From Anaerolineae bacterium (GTDB lineage Bacteria > Chloroflexota > Anaerolineae > Aggregatilineales > Phototrophicaceae): a stretch of 46,144 bases of DNA. This document shows positions 16,133-35,472 of this stretch, one piece after another (position 1 is the stretch's first letter; each line of letters opens with the position of its first letter). Both the position numbers and the translations under genes were made by a program. Location of the stretch: assembly GCA_013360465.1 (NCBI GenBank), contig JABWBO010000024.1, positions 1 through 46,144 of the forward strand, written 5' to 3'. Under the pieces are notes generated by a model. It did not search any database and was not told the origin of the DNA. It was given only the letters and a program-made list of their open reading frames with translations.

Positions 16133-18136
16133 ATGGTGAGCGAACTGCGCCTGGAGTCCTGGGAGATGCCGGTCGCGCCTCTGGGCGCGGAAAACCCCCT
16201 GCCGGCTTTTGGCAAGCCGAATTACCAACCGGTGCTTTCCGGCAAACCGGAGGACGATCCGGACGCCGGCTACGTGCCGGACTATCTGCCCTACACCGTT
16301 CAGGATGGCTATTCACGAGACCGCCGCCGGATTTCGGTGAAGGTCGCCGTGCTGGAAAACGACGTTCTGCGAGCAACCTTCCTGCTCGATTACGGCGGCA
16401 GGCTGTGGTCGCTGCGGCACAAGCCGACTGACCGCGAGCTGCTGTATGTGAACCCGATGCTTCAGCCCGCCAACCTTGCCATGCGCAACGCCTGGTTCAG
16501 CGGCGGCGTCGAATGGAACATGGGTGTGATCGCGCATACGCCCTTCACCTGCTCCCCCCTCTTCGCCGCCCGCAACGAGACGCCGGACGGGACGCCCGCC
16601 CTGCGGTTGTACGAATGGGAGCGCATCCGCCAGGCGGCGTACCAGATCGACGCCTATCTGCCCGACAACTCGGAAATCCTCTACGTCCGCATCCGCCTGG
16701 TGAATCCGTTCGATCATCCGCTGCCGATGTACTGGTGGTCCAACACGGCAGTTCCGGAAGGCGAGGATGTGCGCGTCGTCGTGCCGGCAGATCGCGCCTA
16801 TCGCTATGCCCTGTCGGTGGAAGACCTTCAGACCGTGCCGGTCCCCGTCGTCGACGACAGGGACATCTCCTACACCACGCGCTTCAAGCGCGCGGCGGAT
16901 TACTTCTTCCTCATCCCAGAGGCGCAGCGCCCCTGGATCGCCGCGCTGGACGGTGACGGCAGGGGCTTGATTCAGGTATCGACCGACCGACTGCACGGGC
17001 GGAAACTGTTTCTGTGGGGGACCGGTCCAGGCGGCAGGCGCTGGCAGGAATGGCTGGGAGGACCAGAACGAGACTATCTCGAAATTCAGGCGGGACTTGC
17101 GCCGACGCAGCTCGAGTATGCGATCATGCCGCCCAAAGCTGAATGGTCGTGGCTGGAAGGCTACGGCTTGATGCAAGCCGCGCCGCAGACAGTTCACGGC
17201 GGTGACTGGGATGCGGCGCGCGCCGACATCGAGCAGCGGCTCGAACGTCTGTCGCCCCGCGCGGCGTTCGAGGCGGAATTTGCGCGCGGCGAAACCTGGA
17301 AGGACCAGCCGCCAAGCGAGATTTTGCACCGCGGGTCAGGCTGGGGGGCGCTGGAAGCGGCGCGCCTGCGGCTGCGCGGCGCGCCGCCCTTTGCCGGACC
17401 TGGGCTGGACTTTGGCGCGCCGTCGGAGCCGGCTCAGCAGCCCTGGCTCGCCCTCCTTCAGACCGGGCGTTTCCCTGGTTCGGAGTCCGACACGCTGAAC
17501 GCCGGACTGCTGGTTCAAACGGAGTGGCGTGCCCTGTTGGAGGCGTTCGTCGCGCGGGAACCGGCAGCTTCGTGGGAAGCCTGGCTGCACCTGGGCAGCA
17601 TGCGCCTGCATGAAGGCGAAAGAGCCGGCGCGCGCCAGGCATGGGAGGCTTCACTGGCGCTGAAGCGGACGGCATGGGCGCTGCGAAATCTCGCCGTACT
17701 GATGCGCCTGGAAGGGCGGGTCGAGCTGGCGGCGGACGCGCTGCTGGAAGCGCACGCGCAGCGCCCAGAGATTATCCCGCTGCTGGTTGAGACGGCGCGC
17801 GCGCTGATCGACGCCGGGCGCGTCGGCGCATTTCTGCACAGGCTTTCGGCGCTGCCCGAAACCATCCGTTCGCACGGTCGGATTCGCCTGCTGGAGGTTG
17901 AAGCCGGGCTGGCAGTTGGCGATCTGGACCGCGTGGGGCGATTGTTCGCTTCCCGGTTCGAGATCGTGGACTACCGCGAGGGTGACGAAATTCTGACCGA
18001 CCTGTGGCATCGCTACCACGTGGGGCGTCTGAGCCGCGACGAGGGCATACCCGCCGACGAGGCGCTGTCGCAGCGCGTGAATCGCGAGTATCCTCTTCCC
18101 AGCATATTCGATTTTCGCATGACGGCTGAAGCTTAA
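16133..18136 (+). CDS. DUF5107 domain protein with C-terminal TPR-like region
   Basis: A 667-residue cytoplasmic protein without a signal peptide. The first ~360 residues match my recollection of DUF5107: LENDVLRATFLLDYGGRLWSL, the SGGVEWNMGVIAHTPFTC stretch and PMYWWSNTAVPE, a beta-sandwich resembling aldose-epimerase/glycosidase folds. The remainder is helical with TPR-like pairs (WLHLGSMRLHEGERAGARQAWEASL, then ALRNLAVLMRLEG). No function has been firmly assigned to the family as far as I know; its frequent place in carbohydrate operons suggests intracellular processing of an imported glycoside. It starts 7 bases after the permease with an AGGAG site and is followed within 18 bases by the GH172-like gene, so the two are probably made together and may act on the same sugar. 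Confidence 0.8.
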   Translation: MVSELRLESWEMPVAPLGAENPLPAFGKPNYQPVLSGKPEDDPDAGYVPDYLPYTVQDGYSRDRRRISVKVAVLENDVLRATFLLDYGGRLWSLRHKPTDRELLYVNPMLQPANLAMRNAWFSGGVEWNMGVIAHTPFTCSPLFAARNETPDGTPALRLYEWERIRQAAYQIDAYLPDNSEILYVRIRLVNPFDHPLPMYWWSNTAVPEGEDVRVVVPADRAYRYALSVEDLQTVPVPVVDDRDISYTTRFKRAADYFFLIPEAQRPWIAALDGDGRGLIQVSTDRLHGRKLFLWGTGPGGRRWQEWLGGPERDYLEIQAGLAPTQLEYAIMPPKAEWSWLEGYGLMQAAPQTVHGGDWDAARADIEQRLERLSPRAAFEAEFARGETWKDQPPSEILHRGSGWGALEAARLRLRGAPPFAGPGLDFGAPSEPAQQPWLALLQTGRFPGSESDTLNAGLLVQTEWRALLEAFVAREPAASWEAWLHLGSMRLHEGERAGARQAWEASLALKRTAWALRNLAVLMRLEGRVELAADALLEAHAQRPEIIPLLVETARALIDAGRVGAFLHRLSALPETIRSHGRIRLLEVEAGLAVGDLDRVGRLFASRFEIVDYREGDEILTDLWHRYHVGRLSRDEGIPADEALSQRVNREYPLPSIFDFRMTAEA

Positions 18137-18154
18137 ACGACGGAGGGCGCATAG

Positions 18155-19255
18155 ATGAGCGGCAAATTCAGCGGACTTGGCGTGGACCTGACGAACCTCG
18201 CCCGGCTGTCGGACGCGCGGTCGCGTTCGATCAGCCCGGAGAACTTCACCGGAGCCAAAGGGGAAGGCGGCAAAGCGACTGAAGGCACGGGCGCGCCCTA
18301 CGCAGCGGCGGAACTCGGTCAGGGATGGAAGATCTCGCCGAGCATCAACATGGAAGCGGGCAGCACGTTCGAACTGGCGAACATCGAAGGTCCCGGATGC
18401 ATTCAGCACATGTGGCTGACCGTTGCCCCGGTCTTCTGGCGCTCTCTGATCATCCGCTTCTACTGGGATGATGAGGATACCCCCTCCATCGAACTGCCGA
18501 TCGGCGACCTGTTCTGCAGCGGTTGGTGCGTGCGCTGCAACGTCGCTTCGCTGCCGGTGGCGGTCAACCCGGCGGGCGGCTTCAACAGCTACTGGGAGAT
18601 GCCCTTCCGCAAGCGCGCCCGCGTGACCATCGAAAACCTCAGCCCGGACAAGGTCAACGGTTTGTACTACCAGATCAACTACGTGCTGACCGATGTCCCG
18701 GAAGATTACGGCTACCTGCACGCGCAGTGGCGGCGCAGCAATCCCCTGCCCTATAAGCAGGTCCACACACTGCTCGACGGGGTGCGCGGCAAAGGGCAGT
18801 ATGTGGGCACGTACATCGCCTGGGGCGTCCACAACAACAACTGGTGGGGCGAAGGCGAGATCAAGTTCTATCTCGACGGAGATGTCTGGCCCACGATCTG
18901 CGGGACGGGGACGGAAGATTACTTCGGCGGCGCGTGGAACTTCGAGCATCCGAGGGGCGAGTACGGCGTCTTCAGCGCGCCTTTCTCCGGCATGCCTCAG
19001 GTGATCAAGCCGGATGGTCTGTATCAGAGCCAGCAGCGCTTTGGCATGTACCGCTGGCACATCAAAGACCCGATCCGTTTCGAGACCGATCTGCGTGTGA
19101 CGATTCAGGCGCTGGGCTGGCGGGTATCGCCGGGCGGCAGCGCGCGCAGTTATCTGCCCCTGAAGGACGACATCGCCTCGACATCGTTCTGGTATCAGTC
19201 GGAGCCGCACGCGCCGTTTCCAGCGCTGGCGACTCATGACCTGGAAGTGATCTGA
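18155..19255 (+). CDS. DUF2961/GH172-type glycoside hydrolase
   Basis: A 366-residue protein without a signal peptide. The family signature GTGTEDYFGGAWNFEHPRG is at residues ~251-269 and the N-terminus has the usual S-R-S-I-S-P-E-N region (23-30). E233 and E254 are 21 residues apart, the spacing I recall for the catalytic Glu pair of a characterised GH172 enzyme. Known GH172 members act on alpha-fructofuranosides (difructose dianhydride I) and alpha-D-arabinofuranosides, so a furanoside substrate is the best guess. The start has GGAGGG. It is the last gene of the sugar operon and is followed by a strong hairpin. Absence of a secretion signal means it works on an oligosaccharide after import. 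Confidence 0.82.
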   Translation: MSGKFSGLGVDLTNLARLSDARSRSISPENFTGAKGEGGKATEGTGAPYAAAELGQGWKISPSINMEAGSTFELANIEGPGCIQHMWLTVAPVFWRSLIIRFYWDDEDTPSIELPIGDLFCSGWCVRCNVASLPVAVNPAGGFNSYWEMPFRKRARVTIENLSPDKVNGLYYQINYVLTDVPEDYGYLHAQWRRSNPLPYKQVHTLLDGVRGKGQYVGTYIAWGVHNNNWWGEGEIKFYLDGDVWPTICGTGTEDYFGGAWNFEHPRGEYGVFSAPFSGMPQVIKPDGLYQSQQRFGMYRWHIKDPIRFETDLRVTIQALGWRVSPGGSARSYLPLKDDIASTSFWYQSEPHAPFPALATHDLEVI

Positions 19256-22937: not shown

Positions 22938-22960
22938 TGATCGGACGATTTCACCGATCA
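22938..22960 (-). terminator. weak stem-loop at the FKBP stop codon
   Basis: TGATCGG (22938-22944) pairs with CCGATCA (22954-22960) around 9 bases and overlaps the stop codon at 22958-22960. There is no T-run; it is a weak candidate for 3'-end formation of the FKBP message. Confidence 0.3.
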
Positions 22961-23341
22961 ATAGACGTTGAGCAGCTCGACCTTGAAGATCAGCGTGGCA
23001 TTGGGCGGGATCACGCCAGCCGCGCCGCGCGCCCCATAGCCCAGCTCCGACGGGATGTAGAGTTCGTAGACGGAGCCGATCGGCATCAGTTGGACGCCCT
23101 CGGTCCATCCGGCGATGACCTGATTCAGGAAAAAAGTGATCGGCTCACCGCGCTGATAGGAGCTGTCGAACACCCTGCCGCTGATGAGCCGCCCCTCGTA
23201 GTGGACTTCCACTTCGCTGTTGGCGCTGGACGGGCGTTTGCCCGTTCCCTGCGTCAGGACTTTGTATTGCAGCCCGCTGGCGGTGGTGACGACACCTTCT
23301 TTCCGGGCGTTGGCTTCCAGAAACTGCTTATCCGCCGACAT
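22958..23341 (-). CDS. FKBP-type peptidyl-prolyl cis-trans isomerase
   Basis: A 127-residue cytoplasmic single-domain FKBP. After ~18 residues the domain runs SGLQYKVLTQGTGKRP, VEVHYEGRLISGRVFDSSYQRGEPITF, QVIAGWTEGVQLMPIGS, ELYIPSELGYGARG, and ends LIFKVELLNVY, all conserved FKBP positions. It speeds proline isomerisation during folding. No signal peptide or membrane anchor is visible. It lies between two sugar-enzyme genes on the same strand with no obvious functional link. Confidence 0.95.
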   Translation of the reverse strand: MSADKQFLEANARKEGVVTTASGLQYKVLTQGTGKRPSSANSEVEVHYEGRLISGRVFDSSYQRGEPITFFLNQVIAGWTEGVQLMPIGSVYELYIPSELGYGARGAAGVIPPNATLIFKVELLNVY

Positions 23342-23401
23342 GATATCTGCTCCTCAGGTGGATTTAGACAGAACGGTAGACGCCGACGGCGCATCCCTTC
23401 C

Positions 23402-24460
23402 TTACGGCAGCGCCATGATCTTGCGATATTCGAGACCGCCCTGGTGAATCTGATCGAACATCGCCGGCAGCTGATCGAGCGCGACCCGATGGGTGATCAT
23501 CGCTTCCAGCGAGAGCTGCCCCGCCTTCATCATGTCGAGGATGCTCTGCCATTCCATGCCGGGAAACGGCGCAGAATAGGACATCCAGGAGCCGTGCATG
23601 TTCAACTGACGGCGCATGAACTGTTCGAACAAATCGAGGGAAATCTGCCTGGAAACCGGCTGATTGCCGACCAGCACGACATCACCGCCGGGGCGTGTAC
23701 TCAGCACCGCCTGCATCAGCGTCGCCGGCACACCCGCCACTTCAACCGACAGATCGACGCCGTGCTGGGTCAGGCGCAGAATCGTCTCGGCGACATCGCC
23801 CGTCTGCGCATTCACCGTCTCATCCGCTCCGAACTGCGCCGCAGCCGCCAGGTGATGCTCGGAAATATCGACGGCGATGATGCGCACCGCACCGAGCGCC
23901 CGCGCCGCCTGAATGGTGAGCAGCCCGATAGAACCGACGCCGAAGACGGCAACCGATCTGCCGCGCACGCCGCCGCCGCGATTCAGGGCGTGATGGGCGA
24001 CCGTGCAAGGTTCCAGCAGCGCGCCGATCTCCGGCGAAACTCCGTCCGGGACGGCGATGATGTTGGCTGCCGGCGCTGCCACGTATTCGGCGAAACCGCC
24101 GTTGATGCGCGAGCCGATGAAGGAGTATCCCGGCGAGGAGGCATAGAAGCCCATCGTACTGATCGGGGACTCCCTATTGGGGATCAGCGGGATCAGGGCG
24201 AAACACCGCCCGATGAGGTCGTGGTCAACCCCTTCACCGACGACGACCACCGTCCCGGCGCACTCGTGCCCCAGGACGATAGGCAGGACGCGCGCGTGCC
24301 CGCTCCATACGCGCAGCACGTCCGATCCGCAGATCGACGCCGCGCCGACTTTGAGCAGCACCCATCCGGCATCCGGCTGAGGTACAGGAATCTGCTTGGT
24401 GACCAGCTTCTGCGGGGCTTCCAGCACCACCGCATTCATGAGTTCAGGAATCGTCGTCAA
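23402..24460 (-). CDS. zinc-type medium-chain dehydrogenase, probably a polyol or sugar-phosphate dehydrogenase
   Basis: A 352-residue MDR protein. The catalytic-zinc ligands C44 (ICGSDV) and H65-E66 (GHECAG) are present, and the Rossmann motif VAVFGVGSIGLL (near residues 173-184) binds NAD(P). The structural-zinc loop, which normally carries four cysteines after this point, reads IPLIPNRESPIST and has none, so the protein binds a single zinc. The general pattern fits sorbitol/galactitol-1-phosphate/threonine dehydrogenases. It is on the same strand as the LacD-like aldolase, suggesting oxidation of a polyol or sugar to the ketose form; substrate not determined. Confidence 0.87.
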   Translation of the reverse strand: MTTIPELMNAVVLEAPQKLVTKQIPVPQPDAGWVLLKVGAASICGSDVLRVWSGHARVLPIVLGHECAGTVVVVGEGVDHDLIGRCFALIPLIPNRESPISTMGFYASSPGYSFIGSRINGGFAEYVAAPAANIIAVPDGVSPEIGALLEPCTVAHHALNRGGGVRGRSVAVFGVGSIGLLTIQAARALGAVRIIAVDISEHHLAAAAQFGADETVNAQTGDVAETILRLTQHGVDLSVEVAGVPATLMQAVLSTRPGGDVVLVGNQPVSRQISLDLFEQFMRRQLNMHGSWMSYSAPFPGMEWQSILDMMKAGQLSLEAMITHRVALDQLPAMFDQIHQGGLEYRKIMALP

Positions 24461-24512
24461 GTTCGATCCTCATTTCACGCATTCGGAAAGATTGTACTCC
24501 TGGAACAACCGG

Positions 24513-25175
24513 TTAGGCGAGGTATTCGAAGAAGCGAACCCCGAACAGGGCGGCTTGTGTTCGGTCGCGCAAGTCGAGCTTGGTCAGCAGGTTGCTGACA
24601 TGGGTGCGCACGGTGTTCTCGCTCACCGAAAGCTCTACCGCGATCTCGTGATTTTGCAGCCCGCGCGTCAGCAGGCGCAGCACATCGAGTTCGCGCTCGC
24701 TCAACGACTGGACCAGGTCGATCTCGTTCTGATTGGCGGGGGCGAGATTGGCGGCGATCTGGGCGATCACTTTCGGATGCATAACCGACTGCCCCTTATG
24801 GATGGCGATCACCGCCTTCGCCAGATCGTCCGGCAGGATGTCCTTGAGCAGATACCCCGCCGCTCCGGCGCGAATCGCCGGGAGGACATGTGCGCTGTCG
24901 ATGAAACTGGTCATGATGATGACGCGCACCGCCGGATAGCGCTCGGCGATGATGCGAGTCGCCTCGGCGCCGCTCATCCCCGGCAGGACGAGATCCATCA
25001 GGATGATGTCCACCTCGCTCGTCTCGAGCAGGCGCAGCGCCTCTTCCCCACTGCCGGCTTCGCCAACCACCTTCAGACCTGGCATGGTCTCGATGTAACC
25101 CCGCAGCCCGAACCGCACCATGCCGTGATCGTCCACGATCATGACCCGGATGGTCGCCATCTCAAACCCATTCAT
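24513..25175 (-). CDS. NarL/FixJ-family response regulator
   Basis: A 220-residue two-domain regulator. The receiver has the acidic pair in MIVDDHG (near residue 15), phosphoacceptor D61 (IILMDLVLPG) and the conserved lysine in YLLKDI. Residues ~155-215 are a LuxR-type helix-turn-helix (LSERELDVLRLLTRGLQNHEIAVELSVS, split across the motif, then TVRTHVSNLLTKL). I start at the ATG at 25175, which overlaps the kinase stop (ATGA) and has AAAAGGG; a second ATG at 25160 is possible. The frame upstream to 25526 is inside the kinase gene and is not used. It should be phosphorylated by the kinase at 25172-26689. Confidence 0.94.
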   Translation of the reverse strand: MNGFEMATIRVMIVDDHGMVRFGLRGYIETMPGLKVVGEAGSGEEALRLLETSEVDIILMDLVLPGMSGAEATRIIAERYPAVRVIIMTSFIDSAHVLPAIRAGAAGYLLKDILPDDLAKAVIAIHKGQSVMHPKVIAQIAANLAPANQNEIDLVQSLSERELDVLRLLTRGLQNHEIAVELSVSENTVRTHVSNLLTKLDLRDRTQAALFGVRFFEYLA

Positions 25176-26689
25176 AACAACCCTTTTCGCCGCAAGTCCA
25201 GCATAATGTTCAGCCGCGTCCCCGCGCCGGCAGCCGTCTGAAGGTCGTAGCGCCCGCCCACGCGCCGCAGCCGTGCGCGCATCATCGACAAGCCGGTTGA
25301 AGTCGGCGGCACAGAATCCGCCGCAAAACCCTGTCCATTGTCCTCGACGATGACATGGGTGAGCAAGCCAAACGTGAGCGACACGCGCAGGATCGACGCG
25401 CCGCTGTGACGGACGACATTGGCGACTGCCTCCTGCACGGCGCGAAACAGAGCATGTTCCTGGGCGATGGTCAGCGTGTTGGTCCCCTCGACGCGCCACA
25501 GCAGCTTCAGACGGTGCGCCTCGCACAAGGGATTCAGATACTCCAGCAGCGCATCTTCCAGACGCTTATCCTGAAGTGGGACCGGAGCCAGCTCCTGGAC
25601 CAGGGAGGTCATCTCCGACTGAGCGTAATGCCCCGCCTGTATGATATGTTCCAGGTGAACCCGCACCTGCTCCGGCGCATCGGTCAGCAGGTTCAATACC
25701 GCGCCCGCCGAAAGGGTGATGCTGAACAACTGCTGTTTGACGCTGTCGTGCAGCTCTCTGGCGATGCGCTGGCGTTCTTCGAGGATCGCCGTCATGCGCT
25801 CCTGCCGCGCCAGCTTGAGCAGATGCACGCGATTCTGTTCGTTGGCTGCGGTCTCGGATTTCATCGCCAGATCAAGGTTTTCTGCCATGCGGTTGAACGC
25901 CGCGCCGAGCTGCACTACCGCCGGATCACGCTCCCCGGCAAGATCGATACGGGCGTCGAAGTTGCCCAAGGTGATCTCGTTGGCAGCCTGGACGACCCCT
26001 CGCAGCGATCCCGCCGTCTTTCGCGCCTCCCGGATAACCAGCGCGGCGCTCGCGCCAAAGACCAGCATCAGCAGCACCAGCACGATCAGGATCAGGCGCT
26101 CCATCGTCCCGGAAAATATCTGAAGCGCCAGATCGATTTCCCCAAGGCTTCGCTGGAACAACGCGGCGTTTTCGGCGTCCAGCCGGCGCGTCGTCAGGTC
26201 GAGGTTCCGGCGCATGGCATCCTGCGCCGCCGCTGCGCCTTCACCGATCCTGCCCCCCAGGGAGCGGAAGGCATGGACATAGTTGACCCCGGCGGCGGTG
26301 AGGTCTTGCAGCATGAGATAATCGAGCGAGGGCGGGCTTTGCGATGCCTCGTCAAGGCGTTCGAGCAGCGCGCCAAGGGCGCTTTCGCCGGACCGGTAGT
26401 CGTCGGCTTTTCCCGAACCCAGGAAGCGCTCGGCGCTCAGCCGAGCGTCGACGACCTCCCACGAGAGATCGCCCACCGCGCTCAGGCGCTCGACAGCATC
26501 GGCGACGGGGACCAGCGCTGCGGAGAACTGCCCCTGGAGGATCAGCAGCGCCATCAGTACCGCCGCCAACATGCCGAACAGCACGTAGCGGGGTCCCAGG
26601 CGCAGCAGATCAGAAAACAAGCTGCTGTTCCGCCCAGATGAACGAATCGAGATTGTTGCGTCCATAGCCGCGAATCTTCCAGGGTTCAT
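25172..26689 (-). CDS. NarX-type membrane sensor histidine kinase (HisKA_3)
   Basis: Up to 505 residues. A first membrane segment lies near residues 32-52, then a ~150-residue helical extracytoplasmic sensor, a second segment near 197-218, a HAMP-like linker, a coiled-coil and a HisKA_3 domain with phosphoacceptor H314 (RIARELHDSVKQQ). The C-terminal ATPase has the N box AVQEAVANVVRHS and G box DNGQGFAAD, TGLSMMRARLR. The start is uncertain: the ATG at 26689 and that at 26665 both lack a good ribosome site and lie inside the preceding binding-protein gene, and a TTG near 26622 is also possible. The overlap of up to 80 bases with that gene signals tight coupling. The binding protein probably docks on the helical sensor domain. 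Confidence 0.9.
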   Translation of the reverse strand: MNPGRFAAMDATISIRSSGRNSSLFSDLLRLGPRYVLFGMLAAVLMALLILQGQFSAALVPVADAVERLSAVGDLSWEVVDARLSAERFLGSGKADDYRSGESALGALLERLDEASQSPPSLDYLMLQDLTAAGVNYVHAFRSLGGRIGEGAAAAQDAMRRNLDLTTRRLDAENAALFQRSLGEIDLALQIFSGTMERLILIVLVLLMLVFGASAALVIREARKTAGSLRGVVQAANEITLGNFDARIDLAGERDPAVVQLGAAFNRMAENLDLAMKSETAANEQNRVHLLKLARQERMTAILEERQRIARELHDSVKQQLFSITLSAGAVLNLLTDAPEQVRVHLEHIIQAGHYAQSEMTSLVQELAPVPLQDKRLEDALLEYLNPLCEAHRLKLLWRVEGTNTLTIAQEHALFRAVQEAVANVVRHSGASILRVSLTFGLLTHVIVEDNGQGFAADSVPPTSTGLSMMRARLRRVGGRYDLQTAAGAGTRLNIMLDLRRKGLL

Positions 26690-27692
26690 TGACGAGTTCG
26701 GGGTCGCTCTGAACGTCGAGCGTGATCAGCGTGCCATCGGCGACGATCATCGGCGGAATATCCAGCCTCGCCTGTTCCAGACCCATCATCGCGGCATAAT
26801 ACCCCGCCAGCACCGCCCAACCGTGAACGCGCGGCGATGAGTTGCGCGCCGTCGCCAGCAGACGACCTTCGCCAACCGCCTGAATCGCCGGGATCATAGC
26901 GTCTACCCCGCCCAGAACCACCTGATCCTGCATGCCGTGCCGTTCGACGACGCGGCGTGCCGCCAGCGCCATATCATCATTATGCAGGAATCCCGCTTTG
27001 AGATCAGGATGGCGGTTGAGCAGCACCTCCCAGATCTCGGTGGTCATCTCGACGTTCCAGTCGCCAGGCTGATCGTCCACCACTTCGATGTTCGGGTAGC
27101 GCTGAATGATATTGTAGAATCCCTGTGCCCGTCCCTGCGCGCCGGTGTGTCCCTGCCGTCCCCAGGTATGGGCGATCTTGCCCTCGCCGCCCATCTTGTC
27201 GACGAGCGCCTGGACGACGCTTTCCGCCATCTGGACGTTGTCCGGCGTGATGAAAGTGAGGATGCCGATCTCCTGAAGGAGTGGGAAAGGCGCGATCAGC
27301 GTGTCCATGTCGATGACCGGGATTCCGCGCCGGGTCAGTTCCTCGGTCGATTCAACCAGCGTGCCGATACTGCCGGGCTGTACGGCGACGAAATCCCAGT
27401 CGCGATCGGCGATCTCGCGCATATTGGCGCGCTGCTGGTTCAGATCGAGATTGCCGTCAAACCATTCGATCTCGACCCCCAGCCAGCGCCCCATCTGCTC
27501 TGCCGCCAGTTTGCCCTGCGCCCCCCAACTGACGACCAAACCGTCGTTCATCATCGCGGCGCGCAGCGGATTCTCCCCCTCCTGCCGAAGCGGCATCTTT
27601 TCCAGCAGCCCGGCAAACGGCATCAGCCCGCCCAACCCCAGCGCGCCGGCAGTCCCCCGCAAAAAAGCTCGACGATCCAATAATGTCTTCAT
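26610..27692 (-). CDS. periplasmic sugar-binding protein (PBP1/ribose type) coupled to a sensor kinase
   Basis: A 360-residue protein with a twin-arginine-like leader (RRAFLRGTAG near residues 7-16, then a hydrophobic stretch). The mature part follows the type I periplasmic-binding fold: ...WDFVAVQPGSIGTL, RRGIPVIDMDTL, HNDDMALAARRVVER and VLGGVDAMIPAI, similar to ribose/xylose-type receptors. GAGGAAGAG precedes the ATG. No transporter genes accompany it on this strand; its 3' end overlaps the sensor kinase gene. That context, known from sugar-sensing systems such as XylFII-LytS of clostridia, suggests it presents a bound sugar to the kinase rather than to a permease. Confidence 0.85.
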   Translation of the reverse strand: MKTLLDRRAFLRGTAGALGLGGLMPFAGLLEKMPLRQEGENPLRAAMMNDGLVVSWGAQGKLAAEQMGRWLGVEIEWFDGNLDLNQQRANMREIADRDWDFVAVQPGSIGTLVESTEELTRRGIPVIDMDTLIAPFPLLQEIGILTFITPDNVQMAESVVQALVDKMGGEGKIAHTWGRQGHTGAQGRAQGFYNIIQRYPNIEVVDDQPGDWNVEMTTEIWEVLLNRHPDLKAGFLHNDDMALAARRVVERHGMQDQVVLGGVDAMIPAIQAVGEGRLLATARNSSPRVHGWAVLAGYYAAMMGLEQARLDIPPMIVADGTLITLDVQSDPELVNEPWKIRGYGRNNLDSFIWAEQQLVF

Positions 27693-27769
27693 ATAAGCAC
27701 TCTTCCTCGTCTGTGGCGTTATTCTCTTTCATCTCGGCACTCTGGCAAAGGCGCAGCGCTGACCGACCG

Positions 27770-28153
27770 TCAGTCGCTTCGAATGGGCGGCGCGACGAAG
27801 CGCTGCACCAGGGTGAGCAGGTCTTCCGGCGAAAATGGCTTGCGCAGAAAGGCTGAACAGCCAACGCGTTCCGCCAGCTTCGCCTCGACGCTGCCCACGC
27901 GGGCGGTGCAGGCGATGATCGGCGGGGCGCTGCTGCCGCCCAACTGCTGTGCCAGCACCAAACTCAGGGTCCTGCCGTCCACATCGGGCAGGTTGAAGTC
28001 CATCAGGATGAGTTCGGGCATGTCACGTCGCGCCTCTCTGGCGGCGGGGAGCCCGCGCGTGAAATGGCGCACCTCGTAATGTGCGGATGTCAGGATGTGG
28101 ATGATCATATCCGCGTTATCCTTGTTGTCCTCGACAAGCAAGATGTAGCCCAT
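27770..28153 (-). CDS. single-domain CheY-like response regulator
   Basis: A 127-residue receiver domain with no output domain. Acidic residues E8-D9 (LLVEDNKDNADM), phosphoacceptor D52 (LILMDFNLPDVDG), Thr in CTARVG and Lys in FLRKPFSPEDL are all present. It starts 6 bases downstream of the hybrid kinase stop, so it is an obvious phosphotransfer partner. It could shuttle phosphate to the other kinase pair or act by protein contact; the sequence does not decide. Confidence 0.93.
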   Translation of the reverse strand: MGYILLVEDNKDNADMIIHILTSAHYEVRHFTRGLPAAREARRDMPELILMDFNLPDVDGRTLSLVLAQQLGGSSAPPIIACTARVGSVEAKLAERVGCSAFLRKPFSPEDLLTLVQRFVAPPIRSD

Positions 28154-28159
28154 GTCCCT

Positions 28160-30583
28160 TTATCTCTCTACCAGAAGCAGTCGTTCGCGTACGACATCGA
28201 TCACCTGTTCCGGGGTCGCCGGCTTGGCGATGAAGTCAGCAGCCCCCAACGCCGCCGCCCGCGCCCGATCCGTCGAAGCGGTGCAGACGACGACGGGGAT
28301 GTCCGCCGTCGCCGGGTCGCCCTTCAACTGGGCGATCACATCCCACCCGCTGACGTGCGGCAGATTGACATCCAGGATGATCAGATTGGGCAGCAAGCCC
28401 AACGCCAGTTCCATCACCTGCCCGCCGTCATGCGTGTCGATGACGATGTAACCGGCGACTTCCAGCGCACGGCGCAGCAGTTCGCGCATACTCACTTCAT
28501 CTTCGACCAGAAGAATAGAGCAGACCTCCTGGTCCAGCAGTCCGCTGCTGCGCTCGAAGATGGTGAACGATTCGTTCAGCAGCGCCGGCGCTGCCGCGCT
28601 TTCGCGCTGTTCTGCGGTGGCGACCGGCAGGGTGAACGTGAACTTGCTGCCCTTGCCAACTTCGCTCGCCACCGTCAGATCGCCGCCATGCAGCTGGCTG
28701 AGCTGCTTGCTGATGTCCAGCCCCAGACCAGTCCCTTCGATCTCGCTGAATTTTCCGCTGCTGATCTGGCGGAAACGGTCGAAGATCACGGTTCGCGCAT
28801 CGTCGGGGATGCCGATGCCGGTATCGATGACCGAGATGGACACCCAGACCTCGTCGGTGACCTGGGCGCGCAGCGTGATGCTGCCGCTGTTGGTGAATTT
28901 GACAGCGTTGGACAGCAGATTCAGGACGATCTGGCGGACGCGCATCGGGTCCGCCCACACCAGCGGCAGGTCTTCGGGATAGTCGGGGCGAAGCTGGAGC
29001 GCCTTCTCCTTCAGCAGCCCGGTCGCCGTCGCCAGCACACCCCGAAAGATCTCCGGGAGATCGACCACCGTCGGCGTAAGTTCCAGTTTGCCCGCCTCGA
29101 TCTTGCTCAGATCGAGGATGTCGTTGATCAAGCCGATCAGGTAGTGCCCGTTGTCCTCGATCAGCTTGAGATAGGGGCGGTAGGTCTCCGGGATCGGCAC
29201 GTTGTTGAACATCTGCGGCATGACCAGCATGGAGTGGGAATACCCGATGATGACGTTCAGCGGCGTCCGCAGCTCGTGACTCATATTGGAGAGGAAGAGC
29301 GACTTGGCGCGGCTCGCCTCTTCGGCTTTGCGATTCGCCTCGCTCAGCTTGAGGTTGGCGGACGAGAGTTCGACAGTCCGGCTGGCGACGCGCGCCTCCA
29401 GGCTGCCATAGACGCTCTTCAGCTCACGCAGCATGCCGTCGAAGGCGTCCGCCAGATGCCCGATCTCATCACGCCCGCCCGTGCCCGGAACGGTGACGTC
29501 CCATCTGCCCTGGCGAACGCTGTCGGCGACTTCAGAAAGCTGGCGTATCGGGCGGACAATGCTGCGCGTCAGCAGAATGGCGACCAGAATCGCCGCCAGC
29601 AGCGAGATCAGCGAAAGCAGGATCGCCACCTGCTGCGTGGCATTGACTTCCCCCAGGATGGCGCTGATCGGGATCGCCCGAATCAGCAGCCAGCGAATCG
29701 AAATCTGCGTCTCTGGTCGAATATGTACGAAGACTTGCAGCGAATCGGGCATGTCTGACGACTGCGTGATGATCCCCTGGTCGCTCCCGAACATGGTGAT
29801 GACATCCTCGCGCGAGCGCTCGCCGTCAAAGGTGACGAACGTGTTGAGGATGCGCCCGTACAGCCGATTCGCATCGGTATTGATCAGGTAGCTGCCGTCG
29901 CGGTTGACCAGGAAGATCGGTGCTGCGCTGCGCGAGGTGATGTCCGAAAACAGCGGTTCCAAGCTGACCTTCGCCACCAGCACCGCGACGTTCGCCCCAT
30001 CGACCTCCAGCGGGACCGAATAGTAGAGGATCGGTACGTAGGGCTGGGCGATCACGCCCTCGGTTCGCACCAGATCGTAGTCGGAGATGAAGACCTGGGT
30101 GGACGGCAGCCCTATTGCCTGGTTGAAATAGGCTTCGCCGGCGACGTTCACGTCATCCTCGCTCGACAGAATCTCGCCGGTCGAATCGACATGCAGCAGT
30201 TCCTGCCCGGCGAGGTCGATGATCCGAAAATCGAGATACTGATGGATGGTCGAGCGATCCCGAAACGTCCGCAGCAGGGCGACTTCGGCATCGCGGTAGA
30301 CGTTATTGGGGTCTGGCAGTCCGTTGATGATGCTGGCATAGCGGCGGGTCGGCGGAGCAAGGCTCAGGAAGATGAGGTCTTCCTTGACATCGATCAGGCG
30401 TTTTTCGATGTCATTCGCCTGTGAGACGAGCGTCCGCAGTTCTTCCGCGCCGATCTTCTGGATGAGCGTGCTGGCGGCGGTGCGCAAACTGTAAAAACTG
30501 ATGATTCCGGTCGGGATCAGCAGGACCACAACGAAGGCGAAGATCAGCTTGTTCTGCAGACGACGGGTCACTTTTGGAACCAT
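28160..30583 (-). CDS. hybrid sensor histidine kinase with dCACHE-like sensor and C-terminal receiver
   Basis: An 807-residue hybrid kinase starting at the ATG at 30583, which has AGGGGG; the 12 codons upstream lack a ribosome site. Order: membrane segment ~10-30; extracytoplasmic CACHE-like sensor ~35-300; second membrane segment ~315-345; HAMP (IVRPIRQLSEVADSV); coiled-coil; HisKA with H436 (NMSHELRTPLN); HATPase_c with QIVLNLLSNAVKFT, DTGIGIPDD and GTGLGLDIS; receiver with D738 (IILDVNLPHVSGWD) and a lysine in FIAKPATPE. It senses a small extracellular ligand. It is the first gene of the minus-strand signalling cassette and divergent from the ytfQ-type transporter. Confidence 0.94.
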   Translation of the reverse strand: MVPKVTRRLQNKLIFAFVVVLLIPTGIISFYSLRTAASTLIQKIGAEELRTLVSQANDIEKRLIDVKEDLIFLSLAPPTRRYASIINGLPDPNNVYRDAEVALLRTFRDRSTIHQYLDFRIIDLAGQELLHVDSTGEILSSEDDVNVAGEAYFNQAIGLPSTQVFISDYDLVRTEGVIAQPYVPILYYSVPLEVDGANVAVLVAKVSLEPLFSDITSRSAAPIFLVNRDGSYLINTDANRLYGRILNTFVTFDGERSREDVITMFGSDQGIITQSSDMPDSLQVFVHIRPETQISIRWLLIRAIPISAILGEVNATQQVAILLSLISLLAAILVAILLTRSIVRPIRQLSEVADSVRQGRWDVTVPGTGGRDEIGHLADAFDGMLRELKSVYGSLEARVASRTVELSSANLKLSEANRKAEEASRAKSLFLSNMSHELRTPLNVIIGYSHSMLVMPQMFNNVPIPETYRPYLKLIEDNGHYLIGLINDILDLSKIEAGKLELTPTVVDLPEIFRGVLATATGLLKEKALQLRPDYPEDLPLVWADPMRVRQIVLNLLSNAVKFTNSGSITLRAQVTDEVWVSISVIDTGIGIPDDARTVIFDRFRQISSGKFSEIEGTGLGLDISKQLSQLHGGDLTVASEVGKGSKFTFTLPVATAEQRESAAAPALLNESFTIFERSSGLLDQEVCSILLVEDEVSMRELLRRALEVAGYIVIDTHDGGQVMELALGLLPNLIILDVNLPHVSGWDVIAQLKGDPATADIPVVVCTASTDRARAAALGAADFIAKPATPEQVIDVVRERLLLVER

Positions 30584-30607
30584 GCAGTCCCCCTCATTCT
30601 CTCCATG

Positions 30608-30718
30608 AGTATAAAACATGTACCCGGTACGACCATCATCCTAGAGTTGAACCATAAATCATCCATTTGGATGAAAGCCCTTGCCCGGCGCTTTCATATA
30701 CTCAAAGTATGGGTACCC
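30608..30718. promoter_or_regulatory. divergent control region between the signalling cassette and the ytf-type transporter
   Basis: Two TATACT -10 boxes face away from each other: minus strand at 30613-30608 and plus strand at 30697-30702. Neither has a clear -35, which fits activator-dependent promoters. Related palindromes flank them: GTACC-C-GGTAC (30620-30630), upstream of the minus -10, and GGGTACCC (30711-30718), just after the plus -10. Between them lie CATCCA-TT-TGGATG (30660-30673) and TGAAAGC/GCTTTCA (30672-30678, 30690-30696). The layout suggests joint control of sensor and transporter. Confidence 0.5.
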
Positions 30719-30773
30719 AAAATTGTCAATATCCCGCTGTACGCACTTTTCTTCATGAGGAGGAAACGCCACA

Positions 30774-31745
30774 ATGCGTTCGCACAAACTGTTCTTGTCA
30801 GCCCTTCTCGTCCTCGTCCTCGCCTTCACATCCGTGTTGTTCGTGGCTCATGCGCAGGATGCTTCCGGCGCAGGGCTGACCATCGGTTTCGCACAGGTCG
30901 GTTCGGAAAGCGCCTGGCGCACCGCCTTCAGCGATGCGGTGAAGGCTGAAGCCGAGGCGCGTGGCATCAACCTGCTGTTCTCTGACGGGCAGCAGAAGCA
31001 GGAAAACCAGATCGCCGCGCTGCGCTCGTTCATCGCCCAGGGCGTCGACGGCATCATCCTCGCCCCGGTGGTCGAAACGGGCTGGGACGACGTCCTGCAG
31101 GAAGCGGCGGACAACAGCATTCCGGTCGTGGTCGTGGACCGCAATGTGACTGCCGATGAATCGCTCTTCGTCACCCGCGTGTCGTCCGACTTCGTCCACG
31201 AAGGACGTCTGGCGGCGGCGTGGCTGGTGCAGGCGACGGCGGGCAAATGCGACATCGTCGAGCTTCAGGGCACGGTCGGTTCGAGCGCCGCGCTGGATCG
31301 CCAGCAGGGCTTCAACGAAGTGATCGCCCTCTTCACCGATATGCAGATCATCGCCTCGCAGTCCGGCGACTTTACCCGCACCAACGGCAAGGAAGTGATG
31401 GAAAGCTTCCTGAACTCCATCGATCCGGCGACGATCTGCGCGGTGTGGGCGCACAACGATGACATGCTGATCGGCGCGATTGAGGCGATGAAGGAAGCCG
31501 GCATCGATCCCGGTCAGGACATCCTGACGATTTCGGTGGACGCCATCCCCGATATCTTCAAGGCGATGATGGACGGCGACGCCAACGCCACCGTCGAACT
31601 CAGCCCGAACATGGGCGGACCCGCCTTCGACGCGATTGTCGCTGCCATCAACGGTGAGACGCTGCCGCGCTGGATCCCGGTTGCCGGCGGCATCTACTTC
31701 CCGGATACGGCTGCCGAAGAATACGCGCGGCGCGGCGGTCAGTAA
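30774..31745 (+). CDS. ytfQ: YtfQ-type galactofuranose-binding protein
   Basis: A 323-residue secreted receptor with a signal peptide (cleavage after AHA, near 27). It resembles E. coli YtfQ closely over its length: IGFAQVGSESAWR, FSDGQQKQENQIAALRSF, LAPVVETGWDDVL, VELQGTVGSSAALDR, SGDFTRTNGKEVMESF, VWAHNDDMLIGAIEAMKEAG and ELSPNMGGPAFDA. YtfQ binds galactofuranose with some affinity for pyranose forms, so the same class of ligand is likely. The start has GAGGAGGAAA. Two hairpins follow before the ATPase gene and probably keep its message more abundant than the rest. Confidence 0.93.
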   Translation: MRSHKLFLSALLVLVLAFTSVLFVAHAQDASGAGLTIGFAQVGSESAWRTAFSDAVKAEAEARGINLLFSDGQQKQENQIAALRSFIAQGVDGIILAPVVETGWDDVLQEAADNSIPVVVVDRNVTADESLFVTRVSSDFVHEGRLAAAWLVQATAGKCDIVELQGTVGSSAALDRQQGFNEVIALFTDMQIIASQSGDFTRTNGKEVMESFLNSIDPATICAVWAHNDDMLIGAIEAMKEAGIDPGQDILTISVDAIPDIFKAMMDGDANATVELSPNMGGPAFDAIVAAINGETLPRWIPVAGGIYFPDTAAEEYARRGGQ

Positions 31746-31773
31746 AGCATCGCACAGCACACACGGTGTCCGT

Positions 31774-31829
31774 AAGGGCGCATGCGCCAGCGCGTGCGCC
31801 CTTTCACGGGCAGACAGACCGGTCTGCCC
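31774..31829 (+). repeat. tandem hairpins between ytfQ and ytfR (REP-like element)
   Basis: The first hairpin pairs 31774-31787 with 31790-31803 (13 Watson-Crick pairs plus one G-T). The second pairs GGGCAGAC (31808-31815) with GTCTGCCC (31822-31829) around 6 bases, followed by TAC. The pair matches the tandem element at 13-65 in stem start (GGGC), loop size and CCCTAC ending. Here it sits where transporter operons often carry a processing or attenuation structure. Confidence 0.6.
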
Positions 31830-31853
31830 TACGCTGAATTGGTAGGGGAAAAG

Positions 31854-33368
31854 ATGACTGTTCAGAAAAACACGCCGTTATTGCAGACCCAAAACTTAAC
31901 CAAGCGCTTCGGAAGCGTGCAGGCGCTTTCCGGGGTCGATTTCAACCTCTATCCCGGCGAAGTCCACGCCGTCCTGGGCGAAAACGGCGCAGGCAAATCC
32001 ACGCTGATCAAGCTGATCACCGGCGTCTATCGGCGCGACGCGGGAGAAATCCTCCTCGAAGGCAAGCCGATTGACCCGCAAAGCCCGCACGAAGCCCAGG
32101 CGCTGGGGATCAGCACCGTCTACCAGGAGATCAACCTGGTTCCAACGATGTCGGTCGCCGAGAACATCTTCCTGGGCCGCCAGCCCAGGCGCTTCGGTTT
32201 CATCGACATGCGCGCCGCCAACGCCAGGGCGCGGGCGCTGCTGAAAACCTATCATCTGGACATCGATGTCACCCGCACGCTTTCGACCTTTTCCATCGCC
32301 GTGCAGCAAATCGTCGCCATCGCGCGGGGCGTCGATATGTCTGCGAAGATACTCATCCTCGATGAGCCGACCGCCAGCCTCGACGCTCAGGAAGTGCAGA
32401 TGCTCTTCACGGTGATTCGGGCGCTGAAGGCGCGCGGCATCGGCATCCTGCTGATCACCCACTTCCTCGATCAGGTCTATCAGATCTCAGATCGCATCAC
32501 GGTCCTGCGCAACGGTGAACGGGTTGGCGAACACCTCACCGCCGAACTGCCGAAGATGAAGCTCATCACCCTGATGCTGGGGCGCGAGCTGTTGAGCGAG
32601 ACCGAGAGCAGCGGCGCAGAACGGGCAGCCGTCGGGGATGCCGGGGGGGCGTTCCTCCGTACCGAGGGGATAGCGCGTCGCGGCATGCTTCAGCCCATCG
32701 ACCTGAGCGTCGCCCGGGGCGAGATCGTCGGACTTGCCGGGCTGCTCGGTTCGGGGCGCACCGAAACCGCCCAGTTGATCTTCGGCGTCGCCCGCAGCGA
32801 CGCCGGGTCTGTTCAGGTCAAAGGGCGGAAGGTCGCTATCGGGTCGCCACGACAAGCGGTTCAGCACGGTTTCGGCATGTGCCCGGAAGACCGCAAGGTC
32901 GAGGGTATCATCGCCGACCTGAGCGTGCGCGAAAACATCATCCTCGCCATGCAGGCGAAGCGGGGATGGCTTCGCGCCCTTCCCGCCCGTAAACAGGAAG
33001 AGATCGCCCAGCAAATGATCGCCGCGCTGCACATCGTCACGCCCGATTCCAGCAAGCCCGCCGGCGAGCTTTCCGGCGGCAATCAGCAGAAAGTCATCCT
33101 CGCCCGCTGGCTGGCTTCTCAGCCGGAGTTCCTCATCCTCGATGAGCCGACGCGCGGTATTGATGTCGGCGCACATGCCGAGATCATCCACATCATCAAG
33201 AACCTCTGTGCCCAGGGCATGGCGCTGCTGGTGATCTCCTCGGAACTGGCTGAGGTAGTCGATTACAGCCATCGGGTGGTCGTGCTGCGCGACCGACAGA
33301 AGCTCACCGAACTGACCGGCGAAGATATCAGCGAAGACAACATCATGCGGGCAATTGCGGAGCAGTGA
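31854..33368 (+). CDS. ytfR: YtfR-type sugar ABC transporter ATPase (two ATP-binding cassettes)
   Basis: A 504-residue tandem ATPase of the RbsA/YtfR type. I start at the ATG at 31854 (GGGGAAAAG site); the frame upstream crosses the hairpins. Cassette 1 has Walker A GENGAGKSTL near residue 43 and Walker B ILILDEPTASLD. Its signature motif is degenerate (LSTFSIAVQQIVAIAR). Cassette 2 has a modified Walker A region (GLLGSGRTE), as usual in this family, a full LSGGNQQKV signature and FLILDEPTRGIDVGA. It powers import through the next two gene products. The next gene overlaps or abuts its stop codon. Confidence 0.93.
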   Translation: MTVQKNTPLLQTQNLTKRFGSVQALSGVDFNLYPGEVHAVLGENGAGKSTLIKLITGVYRRDAGEILLEGKPIDPQSPHEAQALGISTVYQEINLVPTMSVAENIFLGRQPRRFGFIDMRAANARARALLKTYHLDIDVTRTLSTFSIAVQQIVAIARGVDMSAKILILDEPTASLDAQEVQMLFTVIRALKARGIGILLITHFLDQVYQISDRITVLRNGERVGEHLTAELPKMKLITLMLGRELLSETESSGAERAAVGDAGGAFLRTEGIARRGMLQPIDLSVARGEIVGLAGLLGSGRTETAQLIFGVARSDAGSVQVKGRKVAIGSPRQAVQHGFGMCPEDRKVEGIIADLSVRENIILAMQAKRGWLRALPARKQEEIAQQMIAALHIVTPDSSKPAGELSGGNQQKVILARWLASQPEFLILDEPTRGIDVGAHAEIIHIIKNLCAQGMALLVISSELAEVVDYSHRVVVLRDRQKLTELTGEDISEDNIMRAIAEQ

Positions 33369-33370
33369 CC

Positions 33371-34441
33371 ATGACCGATCAACGCACCTCTTCCACGCCC
33401 GCCCCACCGCGCCCCAAGTCGTCCATCCTGTCGAGTCTGGGAAGGCTGGCTGCCGGCAACCGCCGCGCGCTCTTTCCCCTGCTGGCACTGGTACTCATCC
33501 TGCTCGGCAACTGGCTGATCTCGCCCAGCTTCTTTTCGATCCGCGTGGTCGAGGGGCGTATGCTGGGCAGCATCATCGACATCTTCAATCGCGGCGCGCC
33601 GACGGTGCTGCTGGCGATTGGCATGACGCTGGTCATCGCCACCAAGGGCATCGATCTTTCCGTCGGGGCAGTCATCGCCATCTGCGGCGCAGTCGCTGCC
33701 GTGCTGATCTCCACAACCGATCTGTCGCCATACGTCGTCATGCTGCTCAGCGTCGGCGCGGGCATTCTGTGCGGTCTGTGGAACGGCATCCTGGTCGCCA
33801 TCTTCGACATTCAGCCGTTCATCGCCACGTTGATCCTGATGGTGGTCGGGCGCGGCATCGCGCAGCTGATCACCGAGGGGCAGATCGCCGTCTTTAACAA
33901 CCCGACGCTGGAATTCATCGGCAAAGGGACGCTGTTCGGCATTCCTTTCGCCATCATCCTCACGGCGATAGTGTTCGTCATCGTGTATCTGTTCATCCGG
34001 CGCACTGCGCTGGGACTGCTGATCGAATCGGTCGGCGCGAACGCCCGCGCCAGCTACTACGCCGGCATCAACGCCCGGTTGATCACCCTGATGGTCTATG
34101 TGATCTCCGGGATATGCGCCGCCATCGCCGGGCTGATCATCACCACCGATATCAAAGGCGCAGACGCCAACAATGCCGGGCTGTGGCTGGAACTTGACGC
34201 CATCCTGGCGGTGGTCATCGGCGGGACGCTGCTCAGCGGCGGACGATTCTACCTGGCGCTGAGCGTGATCGGCGCGCTCATCATCCAGAGCATTCAGACC
34301 GGCATCTTCGTCAGCGGGCTGCCCCCGACCTTCAACCTGATCGTCCAGGCGGTGGTGATCCTGGCGATCCTGTTCCTCCAGTCCGAAGAATTCAGACGCC
34401 CCTTCGTGCGCGCCTGGAACCGCATGAGGAAAACAGCATGA
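33371..34441 (+). CDS. ytfT: YtfT-type sugar ABC permease
   Basis: A 356-residue polytopic membrane protein of the RbsC family. It matches E. coli YtfT along its length, for example DIFNRGAPTVLLAIGMTLVIA, GIDLSVGAVIAI, WNGILVAIFDIQPFIATLILM, RGIAQLITEGQIAVFN, and GADANNAGLWLELDAILAVVIGG. I prefer the ATG at 33371 with GGAG at 8 bases; a GTG at 33365 overlapping the previous stop is the alternative. It pairs with YjfF to form the channel, and its stop overlaps the start of yjfF (ATGA). Confidence 0.94.
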   Translation: MTDQRTSSTPAPPRPKSSILSSLGRLAAGNRRALFPLLALVLILLGNWLISPSFFSIRVVEGRMLGSIIDIFNRGAPTVLLAIGMTLVIATKGIDLSVGAVIAICGAVAAVLISTTDLSPYVVMLLSVGAGILCGLWNGILVAIFDIQPFIATLILMVVGRGIAQLITEGQIAVFNNPTLEFIGKGTLFGIPFAIILTAIVFVIVYLFIRRTALGLLIESVGANARASYYAGINARLITLMVYVISGICAAIAGLIITTDIKGADANNAGLWLELDAILAVVIGGTLLSGGRFYLALSVIGALIIQSIQTGIFVSGLPPTFNLIVQAVVILAILFLQSEEFRRPFVRAWNRMRKTA

Positions 34442-35472
34442 GATCGCGCGCCTTCCCGCTCATCGCCACCTTCGTCGTGTTCGTCGCGCTCTATCTGATC
34501 GGTTATCAGCGTTTTCCGGCGTTCGGCACAACGCGCGTGATCGCCAATTTCCTGACCGACAAATCCTTCCTGGGCATCGCCGCCGTCGGCATGACCTTCG
34601 TGATCATCGCCGGCGGCATCGACCTGTCGGTCGGCTCGGTCGTCGCCTTCACCGGCGTCTTCTGCGCCCTGGCAATCGGGCGACTGGGTATGCACCCGCT
34701 GGTCGCCTTCGCCGTCATCCTGCTGATCGGCGCGGCGTTCGGCGCGATCATGGGGGCGGTCATCCACTTCTACAAGATTCCGGCGTTCATCGTCACGCTG
34801 GCAGGCATGTTCCTGGCGCGCGGCGGCGCGTTCGTCCTCTCGCAGGAATCGCTGCCCATCGAACACTCGTTTTATGAGCTGATCGGCGACCTGTATTACG
34901 TCTTCCCAGACCGGGGCAGGCTGACCTTCGTCGCCGTCCTGTTCGTCGTCGTCCTGGTGGTGGGCATCGTCATCGCCCACTTCACCCGCTTTGGACGGAA
35001 CATCTACGCGATGGGCGGCAGCCGGGAAAGCGCAGCCAATGCCGCCCTGCTCCTGGGCGTGCCGATCGGGCGCACCACCATCATGGTCTACACCCTCAGC
35101 GCAGTGCTGGCGACGCTGTCCGGCATCGTCTATTCGCTCTATACCAGTTCAGGCTATCCCCGCGCCGCCGTCGGTCTGGAACTCGACGCGATTGCGGCGG
35201 TCGTCACCGGCGGCACGCTGCTGACGGGCGGCGTTGGCTTCGTCGCCGGGACGTTCGTCGGGGTGATGATCCAGGGGGTGATTCAGACCTACATCAATTT
35301 CGACGGCACGCTGAACAGCTGGTGGACCAAGATCGTGATCGGTCTGCTGCTCTTCCTGTTCATCATCATCCAGAAAGTCCTGACCAGCTACCGGGGCACG
35401 TTCACTTTCAGGCTGATTCCGGGGCTATCGCGCCGGGCGGCAGAGTCGAAGACGAGCGCGTCTCCACCGTGA
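34438..35472 (+). CDS. yjfF: YjfF-type sugar ABC permease
   Basis: A 344-residue membrane protein of the RbsC family. It matches E. coli YjfF: FLGIAAVGMTFVIIAGGIDLSVGSVVAFTG (as separate conserved blocks), KIPAFIVTLAGMFLARG, and QTYINFDGTLNSWWTKI near the C-terminus. Start and stop order show the same gene sequence as E. coli ytfQ-ytfR-ytfT-yjfF. It completes a galactofuranose-type importer. It is convergent with the DUF385 gene, 43 bases away, with no obvious terminator between. Confidence 0.94.
   Translation: MRSRAFPLIATFVVFVALYLIGYQRFPAFGTTRVIANFLTDKSFLGIAAVGMTFVIIAGGIDLSVGSVVAFTGVFCALAIGRLGMHPLVAFAVILLIGAAFGAIMGAVIHFYKIPAFIVTLAGMFLARGGAFVLSQESLPIEHSFYELIGDLYYVFPDRGRLTFVAVLFVVVLVVGIVIAHFTRFGRNIYAMGGSRESAANAALLLGVPIGRTTIMVYTLSAVLATLSGIVYSLYTSSGYPRAAVGLELDAIAAVVTGGTLLTGGVGFVAGTFVGVMIQGVIQTYINFDGTLNSWWTKIVIGLLLFLFIIIQKVLTSYRGTFTFRLIPGLSRRAAESKTSASPP

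Follow-up and report, generated by a model that had tools for sequence, protein, structure and literature searches.

We analysed a 46,144-nucleotide stretch of Anaerolineae DNA (contig JABWBO010000024.1; hereafter the window), in which a five-gene signalling cassette on the minus strand lies divergent from a sugar importer operon, ytfQRT-yjfF (30774-35472, plus strand). The source is a metagenome-assembled genome (MAG; G000) of 5.9 Mb in 256 contigs, which is of Anaerolineae type going by its named relatives. Open reading frames (ORFs), Pfam and NCBIfam agree on the five genes, with the domains and order that a first-pass annotation had given them: a hybrid histidine kinase (HHK), a lone receiver (REC), a sugar-binding protein (SBP), a second histidine kinase (HK) and a NarL-type response regulator. 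The HHK (28160-30583) is 807 aa long when started at ATG 30583 and combines a dCACHE sensor, HAMP, HisKA, HATPase and a receiver (Pfam, structure model and fold matches), and it is followed by REC (27770-28153; Pfam and alignment). The SBP (26610-27692) is a Tat-type Peripla_BP_4 sugar-binding protein of the kinase-linked type A described below (Pfam, N-terminal motif and tree). The HK (25172-26689) has a helical sensor with two transmembrane segments, HAMP, HisKA_3 and HATPase (Pfam, domain identities and a low-confidence model), and its gene overlaps by ATGA that of the regulator (24513-25175, with the start of our choice), in which a receiver precedes a GerE/LuxR helix-turn-helix (Pfam; NCBIfam matches fall below the family cut-offs). 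The phosphorylation sites that had been named, H436 and D738 of the HHK (numbered from ATG 30583), D52 of REC, H314 of the HK and D61 of the regulator, are all correct by alignment, with D52 intact, and Pfam found no Hpt domain among the five proteins. Four other MAGs preserve the gene order, which makes the cassette more than a chance arrangement.

For the HHK, the start at 30583 is preferable to the longest-ORF start at 30619 because it is preceded by a strong Shine-Dalgarno-like ribosome-binding sequence and because codons upstream of the conserved MVPK are stops in two relatives (L011 and L165). The suggestion that the HHK gene is broken in genomes G356 and G350 was rejected, as the reported stops fall upstream of this conserved start. 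The sensor was assigned to dCACHE by Pfam (PF21623, 3.6e-12) and by sequence matches to PDB entries 2p7j and 3lid (~7e-6); its structure model (pLDDT 84.5) aligns with 2p7j_A over 256 residues (Z 26.4, rmsd 2.7). LuxQ was absent among the best 50 fold matches listed for this sensor (two fold lists), which shows nothing either way. For the SBP, the fold is Peripla_BP_4 (PF13407, 7.5e-35), the twin-arginine motif RRAFL bears out its earlier description as a Tat-type protein, and the match to PDB 2x7x, a "sensor protein" which we take to be BT1754, reaches 9.6e-18.

Scanning genome contigs, we found four further loci with the same order of all five genes. The cassette is thus counted in five of the 154 genomes of the order, because only these five match the HK sensor query along its whole length. 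In G350, one of the five, it is divided between contigs L009 and L165, which we joined via the two parts of the HHK; L165, which was listed twice, was dropped from the dCACHE counts, and L011 and L165 were left out of one alignment. The divergent ytf operon accompanies all five cassettes (the window, L008, L010, L011 and L165), with the L011 contig ending inside ytfT. Conservation beside ytf-type operons had been proposed as a check of the idea of a sugar-sensing cassette, and that idea holds to the extent that the cassette keeps this position throughout and probably controls the importer, judging from gene order; the kinase wiring proposed with it probably does not, as discussed below.

The importer had been called furanose-type, and a ytf-type identity is supported by the ytf models being the best match for all four genes. 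YjfF (permease, 34438-35472) scores above its NCBIfam cut-off (455 vs 363), while YtfQ (30774-31745), YtfR (ABC ATPase, 31782-33368) and YtfT (permease, 33365-34441) score below theirs (430/510, 777/850 and 436/535, respectively). The sugar-binding protein YtfQ also matches PDB entries 5ocp and 2vk2 (YtfQ), and Pfam supports the assignments of YtfR and YtfT. In the gap between the HHK gene and ytfQ, alignment revealed a conserved block of 28 bp (30636-30663, plus strand), a candidate operator whose best 14-column window has 11 invariant columns, compared with 0-8 in the other windows counted. A genome pattern search found exactly one copy of this element in each of the five cassette genomes and, with up to 3 mismatches allowed, none in G420, G342 or G355. 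An inverted repeat, TCATCC-ATTT-GGATGA (30659-30674), overlaps it. Between 22000 and 36500 there is no Rfam match, and promoter-like matches (3 vs 2.3 expected) and terminator-like matches (7 vs 6.7 expected) are at chance level. When the window (22960-35450) is compared with L008, the cassette-side DNA is ~91% identical and identity falls to ~70% from ~31100, inside ytfQ; this drop is a probable recombination boundary, at which the importer allele would differ while the sensor was kept.

Next, we investigated the dCACHE sensor across relatives. The search returned 25 places in the order and 27 further ones in a class sample, of which 25/25 and 20/27 were read; neighbourhoods were labelled with custom profiles, and Pfam confirmed Peripla_BP_4 in the six distant SBPs tested. 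An SBP gene on the same strand within 2.5 kb was present at 12 of the 21 dCACHE-HisKA loci, at 0/12 dCACHE-HisKA_3 loci and at 0/11 other dCACHE loci (Fisher p 1.4e-5; 1.4e-4 when the window clade counts as a single locus), the twelfth, L164, being counted via the tandem SBP of an ABC operon. A lone receiver lies within 2.5 kb at 13/21 dCACHE-HisKA loci, and at 11 of the 12 that have an SBP. The dCACHE-HisKA loci without a same-strand SBP include five close relatives of one genus, L151 (at a contig edge) and L155 (8623-13372), where an ABC operon near the dCACHE-HisKA kinase, on the other strand, has an SBP of Bmp type (PF02608). The dCACHE-HisKA_3 kinases (L160-L162, L167-L169, L177, L179 and L185-L188) have a NarL partner in 11 of 12 cases and no SBP, and are a simpler related sensor.

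The kinase-linked SBPs comprise type A (the window clade and L083), type B (L149, L150 and L153), type C (L156, L163 and L164) and that of L152, and they match the dCACHE subclades (Mantel r 0.91 for 12 loci and 0.79 for the 9 left when the window clade is collapsed; p 0.0002 by permutation in both cases; the separate L164 SBP at 17575-18636 was used). Three SBP families each contain both ABC-linked and kinase-linked members. Order-wide searches with types C and B gave 37 rows each, and 20 loci were read for each with 1.5 kb flanks: for type C, 3 are labelled HHK, 14 ABC only and 3 were left unassigned, and for type B, 3, 16 and 1, respectively. One type C label, that of L238, stems from its HisKA_3 kinase, with the HHK upstream in L229. 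On the SBP tree, in which L262 and L150 are an identical protein, the kinase-linked label needs 5 changes, at least 4 of them on well-supported branches. By this tree, SBPs have on several occasions changed role, from transport to sensing or the reverse, or given up one of the two.

For the SBP of the window itself, the order-wide search placed the four other cassette loci as the best non-self matches (84-97% identity), with further relatives at 41-62%. Among the 36 lower matches, 18 neighbourhoods were read; the other 18, none on a contig with a dCACHE match, were left out. An ABC ATPase adjoins the SBP in 17 of the 18 read (L084-L098, L043 and L044), as it does at all five class-level loci (L045-L049). 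The lone exception, L083 (in G420), has a 61% identical SBP after an HHK and a REC, and has no HK-NarL pair. At the place of that pair, L083 encodes a soluble-looking protein (7665-8879) with a C-terminal receiver and an N-terminal part without a Pfam match. A signal-peptidase-like site, [ASV]xAQ[DES], follows the Tat region in 17/18 N-termini of ABC-linked type A relatives, the exception being the lipoprotein-like class-level L045. Because none of the five cassette SBPs has this site, the sensor SBP may stay membrane-anchored through an uncleaved Tat signal, although a search of this SBP revealed no segment of strong hydrophobicity.

Lone receivers at L083, L149, L150, L152 and L153 are 48-64% identical to the REC of the window, compared with only 18-32% for non-orthologous receivers, and the Asp is intact in all aligned lone receivers. 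The receiver fused to the HHK, on the other hand, has lost its Asp in 2/10 cases (Gly in L083, Gln in L152) and was not detected by custom profiles in the HHKs of L151, L155, L156 and L163. Since the acceptor residue is always kept in the one and is, at some loci, lost or missing with its domain in the other, the alignments favour the lone receiver over the fused receiver as the working acceptor of the HHK.

Taken together, these patterns indicate that the cassette is probably an SBP-coupled hybrid-kinase sensor, with HHK, REC and SBP as its core, which in this lineage has been wired to an HK-NarL pair controlling a furanose-type importer. By analogy with LuxP-LuxQ, the HHK is the most likely docking partner of the SBP, with HK-NarL as a lineage-specific output, because the SBP recurs with HHK relatives in fetched stretches that hold no membrane HK, because it tracks the dCACHE subclade, and because the HK sensor is poorly conserved. 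Under this arrangement, the SBP, perhaps held by its uncleaved Tat signal, would bind sugar and dock on the HHK at its periplasmic dCACHE domain. The HHK would then autophosphorylate at H436 with D52 of REC as the main acceptor, the fused receiver being dispensable, as the pattern of intact residues suggests. More speculatively, phosphorylated REC would act on the HK, which would in turn phosphorylate D61 of NarL. NarL would finally bind the single conserved element between the HHK gene and ytfQ and drive both divergent operons. We further propose, tentatively, that the dCACHE hybrid kinase, usually with its lone receiver, is a sensing chassis in this order which has been paired repeatedly with SBPs of the ABC-transporter type from different families (A, B, C and that of L152), and which in the window lineage was joined via the receiver to a second kinase-regulator pair, giving a multi-step relay for the furanose importer.

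The first-pass annotation had instead assigned the SBP to the HisKA_3 kinase and a second ligand to the CACHE kinase. In the rival explanation closest to this, the SBP signals to NarL by docking on the helical HK sensor (cf. TorT-TorS and XylFII-LytS), with the HHK sensing a separate ligand by its dCACHE domain and joining via REC. Gene layout speaks for it, in that the HK frame is open across the SBP gene end with two in-frame ATGs inside that gene in all five cassettes, so that the HK probably starts within the SBP gene (ATG 26689 or 26665), and in that the HK and NarL genes overlap; both ATGs fall in conserved SBP codons, so their own conservation may have that cause. The HK model is poor (pLDDT 71, pTM 0.35) and predicts a helical sensor, for which TorS-TorT offers a precedent of an all-helical sensor with a binding protein, in the part of the source available (PMC8534201). 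The best 50 fold matches listed for the model are mainly DesK-type and other kinase cores and do not classify the sensor. In its membrane and sensor part, however, the window HK shares only 21-24% identity with its counterparts at L009, L010 and L011, and 87% with that of L008, a near-identical relative, whereas against the first three loci the mature SBP is 87-89%, dCACHE 70-73% (with L165 standing in for L009), the HK kinase core 72-77% and NarL 73-79% identical. A conserved SBP contact on the HK sensor is therefore unlikely. Matches to the HK sensor query outside the five cassettes span only residues 150-288 among the 154 genomes, the best class-level HK relative, found with a strict cut-off (G026), has NarL alongside and no SBP or HHK match in 12 kb, and eight other loci (L083, L149, L150, L152, L153, L156, L163 and L164) pair an SBP with an HHK while a membrane HisKA_3 kinase is missing from the fetched stretch. 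We consequently consider this rival unlikely and the earlier wiring claim not supported by the relatives. That parts of the cassette would turn up separately in relatives had been named as one finding that would refute the original picture; they do, in such a way that HHK, REC and SBP stand out as a core to which HK-NarL has been added. The two-input idea loses weight accordingly, and inputs may still converge through the CheY-like protein.

Less probable again is that one liganded SBP activates both kinases, HHK and HK, so that a single sugar yields two outputs: the SBP gene does lie between those of REC and HK in all five cassettes, with the HK frame opening inside it, and related modules do pair an SBP with an HHK, but the fast divergence of the HK sensor counts against a shared contact. 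That the halves are independent neighbours, SBP-HHK-REC having targets elsewhere and HK-NarL controlling ytf in response to an unrelated signal, seems very improbable, since gene order is kept in all five and frames overlap across the join, even though the SBP-HHK half occurs alone in relatives and no Hpt domain is there to link the two.

As for a link between the receiver and the second kinase, in G355 (L229) a dCACHE-HHK lies upstream of a type C SBP that is followed by a soluble receiver-HisKA_3 fusion and then NarL, an arrangement suggesting that HisKA_3 kinases can take input from a receiver. The description of the HK as NarX-type stands for its HisKA_3/HATPase core, to which the NCBIfam NarX/NarQ matches are confined (residues 290-498) and which is paired with a NarL-type partner as in NarX/NarQ (Pfam and NCBIfam). 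In the sensor it finds no support, as no Pfam family matches there at E 0.001, a NarX-type nitrate-sensing domain included; the nitrate-binding motif was not aligned. A role of the HK as nitrate sensor is not supported by the Pfam search. Nitrate-sensing kinases of such a type do exist in Chloroflexi, according to the accessible portion of one study (PMC8199190).

Several observations weigh against an SBP-coupled HHK as the core of the system. The opening of the HK frame within the SBP gene and the presence of HK-NarL in all five cassettes tie the SBP to the HK in this lineage, and fast evolution is common in sensor domains, so the low HK identity is circumstantial. Nine of the 21 dCACHE-HisKA loci lack a same-strand SBP within 2.5 kb, so that such kinases can do without one, and the count at L164 rests on an SBP that belongs to an ABC operon, while the distance test used a second one ~5 kb away. 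The Mantel correlation reflects co-inheritance and not contact, the kinase-linked type B SBPs are not a clade, and the ABC-labelled L252, whose contig ends in the SBP, sits among the type C sensors. Type C receivers are unlike the REC of the window (27% or less identical), and the order has many soluble REC-HisKA_3 proteins, which weakens the support from the L229 fusion. The contrast in signal sites is blurred by L045, which is ABC-linked, and by L083, which is kinase-linked and lacks the [ASV]xAQ[DES] site, though it has a possible TRA site. Finally, the pattern of the 28-bp element was derived from the five cassette sequences, two of them near-identical, so its presence there is by construction.

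We also compared the cassette with known systems. In the Vibrio AI-2 sensor, LuxP has a sugar-SBP fold and LuxQ is a hybrid kinase that feeds LuxU and LuxO. As far as the available text of PMC8534201 goes, LuxP acts via a kinase whose periplasmic sensor is of double-PDC (dCACHE-like) type, and LuxQ recognises AI-2 through LuxP, its PDCs not binding AI-2 directly. Corresponding features are found in the cassette, namely a protein of sugar-SBP fold and a dCACHE kinase with a fused receiver (Pfam and model). It differs in being a Chloroflexota system next to a sugar importer and in continuing with a lone receiver, a second kinase and NarL. The HptA-HptS-HptR system of Staphylococcus aureus senses glucose-6-phosphate and has no second kinase, and HptS is not known to be a hybrid kinase. 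It resembles the cassette in having a double-PDC kinase with a periplasmic partner, HptA (PMC8534201), and regulates a hexose-phosphate transporter (PMC6291074), both sources being available in part. From TorT-TorS-TorR the cassette differs in that its helical-sensor kinase is not hybrid and its hybrid kinase carries dCACHE. TorT is a binding protein of sugar-SBP fold, and TorS is itself hybrid. The likeness lies in the all-helical TorS sensor, given in the same portion of PMC8534201, and that predicted for the HK. XylFII-LytS-YesN and CuaD-CuaS-CuaR share with the cassette a second, sensor-dedicated SBP beside a two-component system controlling a sugar importer (CuaDSR: PMC10384115, in part), but have one kinase and a YesN/AraC-type regulator (CuaR), with a hybrid kinase and a lone receiver going unmentioned in the text available of that source. 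In all five cassettes, too, a second SBP of this kind adjoins an importer and a two-component pair, and their regulator has a helix-turn-helix of GerE/LuxR type, not AraC/YesN type. Hybrid two-component sensors of the BT1754 type also use an SBP domain in sugar sensing. That domain is fused to the kinase, whereas SBP and kinase are separate genes here.

Among the part of the open-access literature matches that was viewed, no title concerned a Chloroflexota module of this kind, and the module is one of known parts in an arrangement without precedent found among open-access titles. If the interpretation is true, transporter binding proteins are a pool that has supplied sensors repeatedly to one kinase chassis, and sensor evolution and SBP-kinase specificity become testable by swaps of matched parts. 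It would also help to explain how sugars are sensed in a group represented here mainly by MAGs, and would caution against assigning an SBP to whichever kinase gene lies closest.

Two further arrangements were observed among the relatives. Single ORFs with 2-3 tandem sugar-binding-protein domains occur inside ABC operons (L229:3691-5643, L054:5848-8244 and L056:7610-9220). In five genomes of one genus (L201-L205), a receiver-HisKA_3 kinase and NarL lie directly downstream of ABC ATPase genes.

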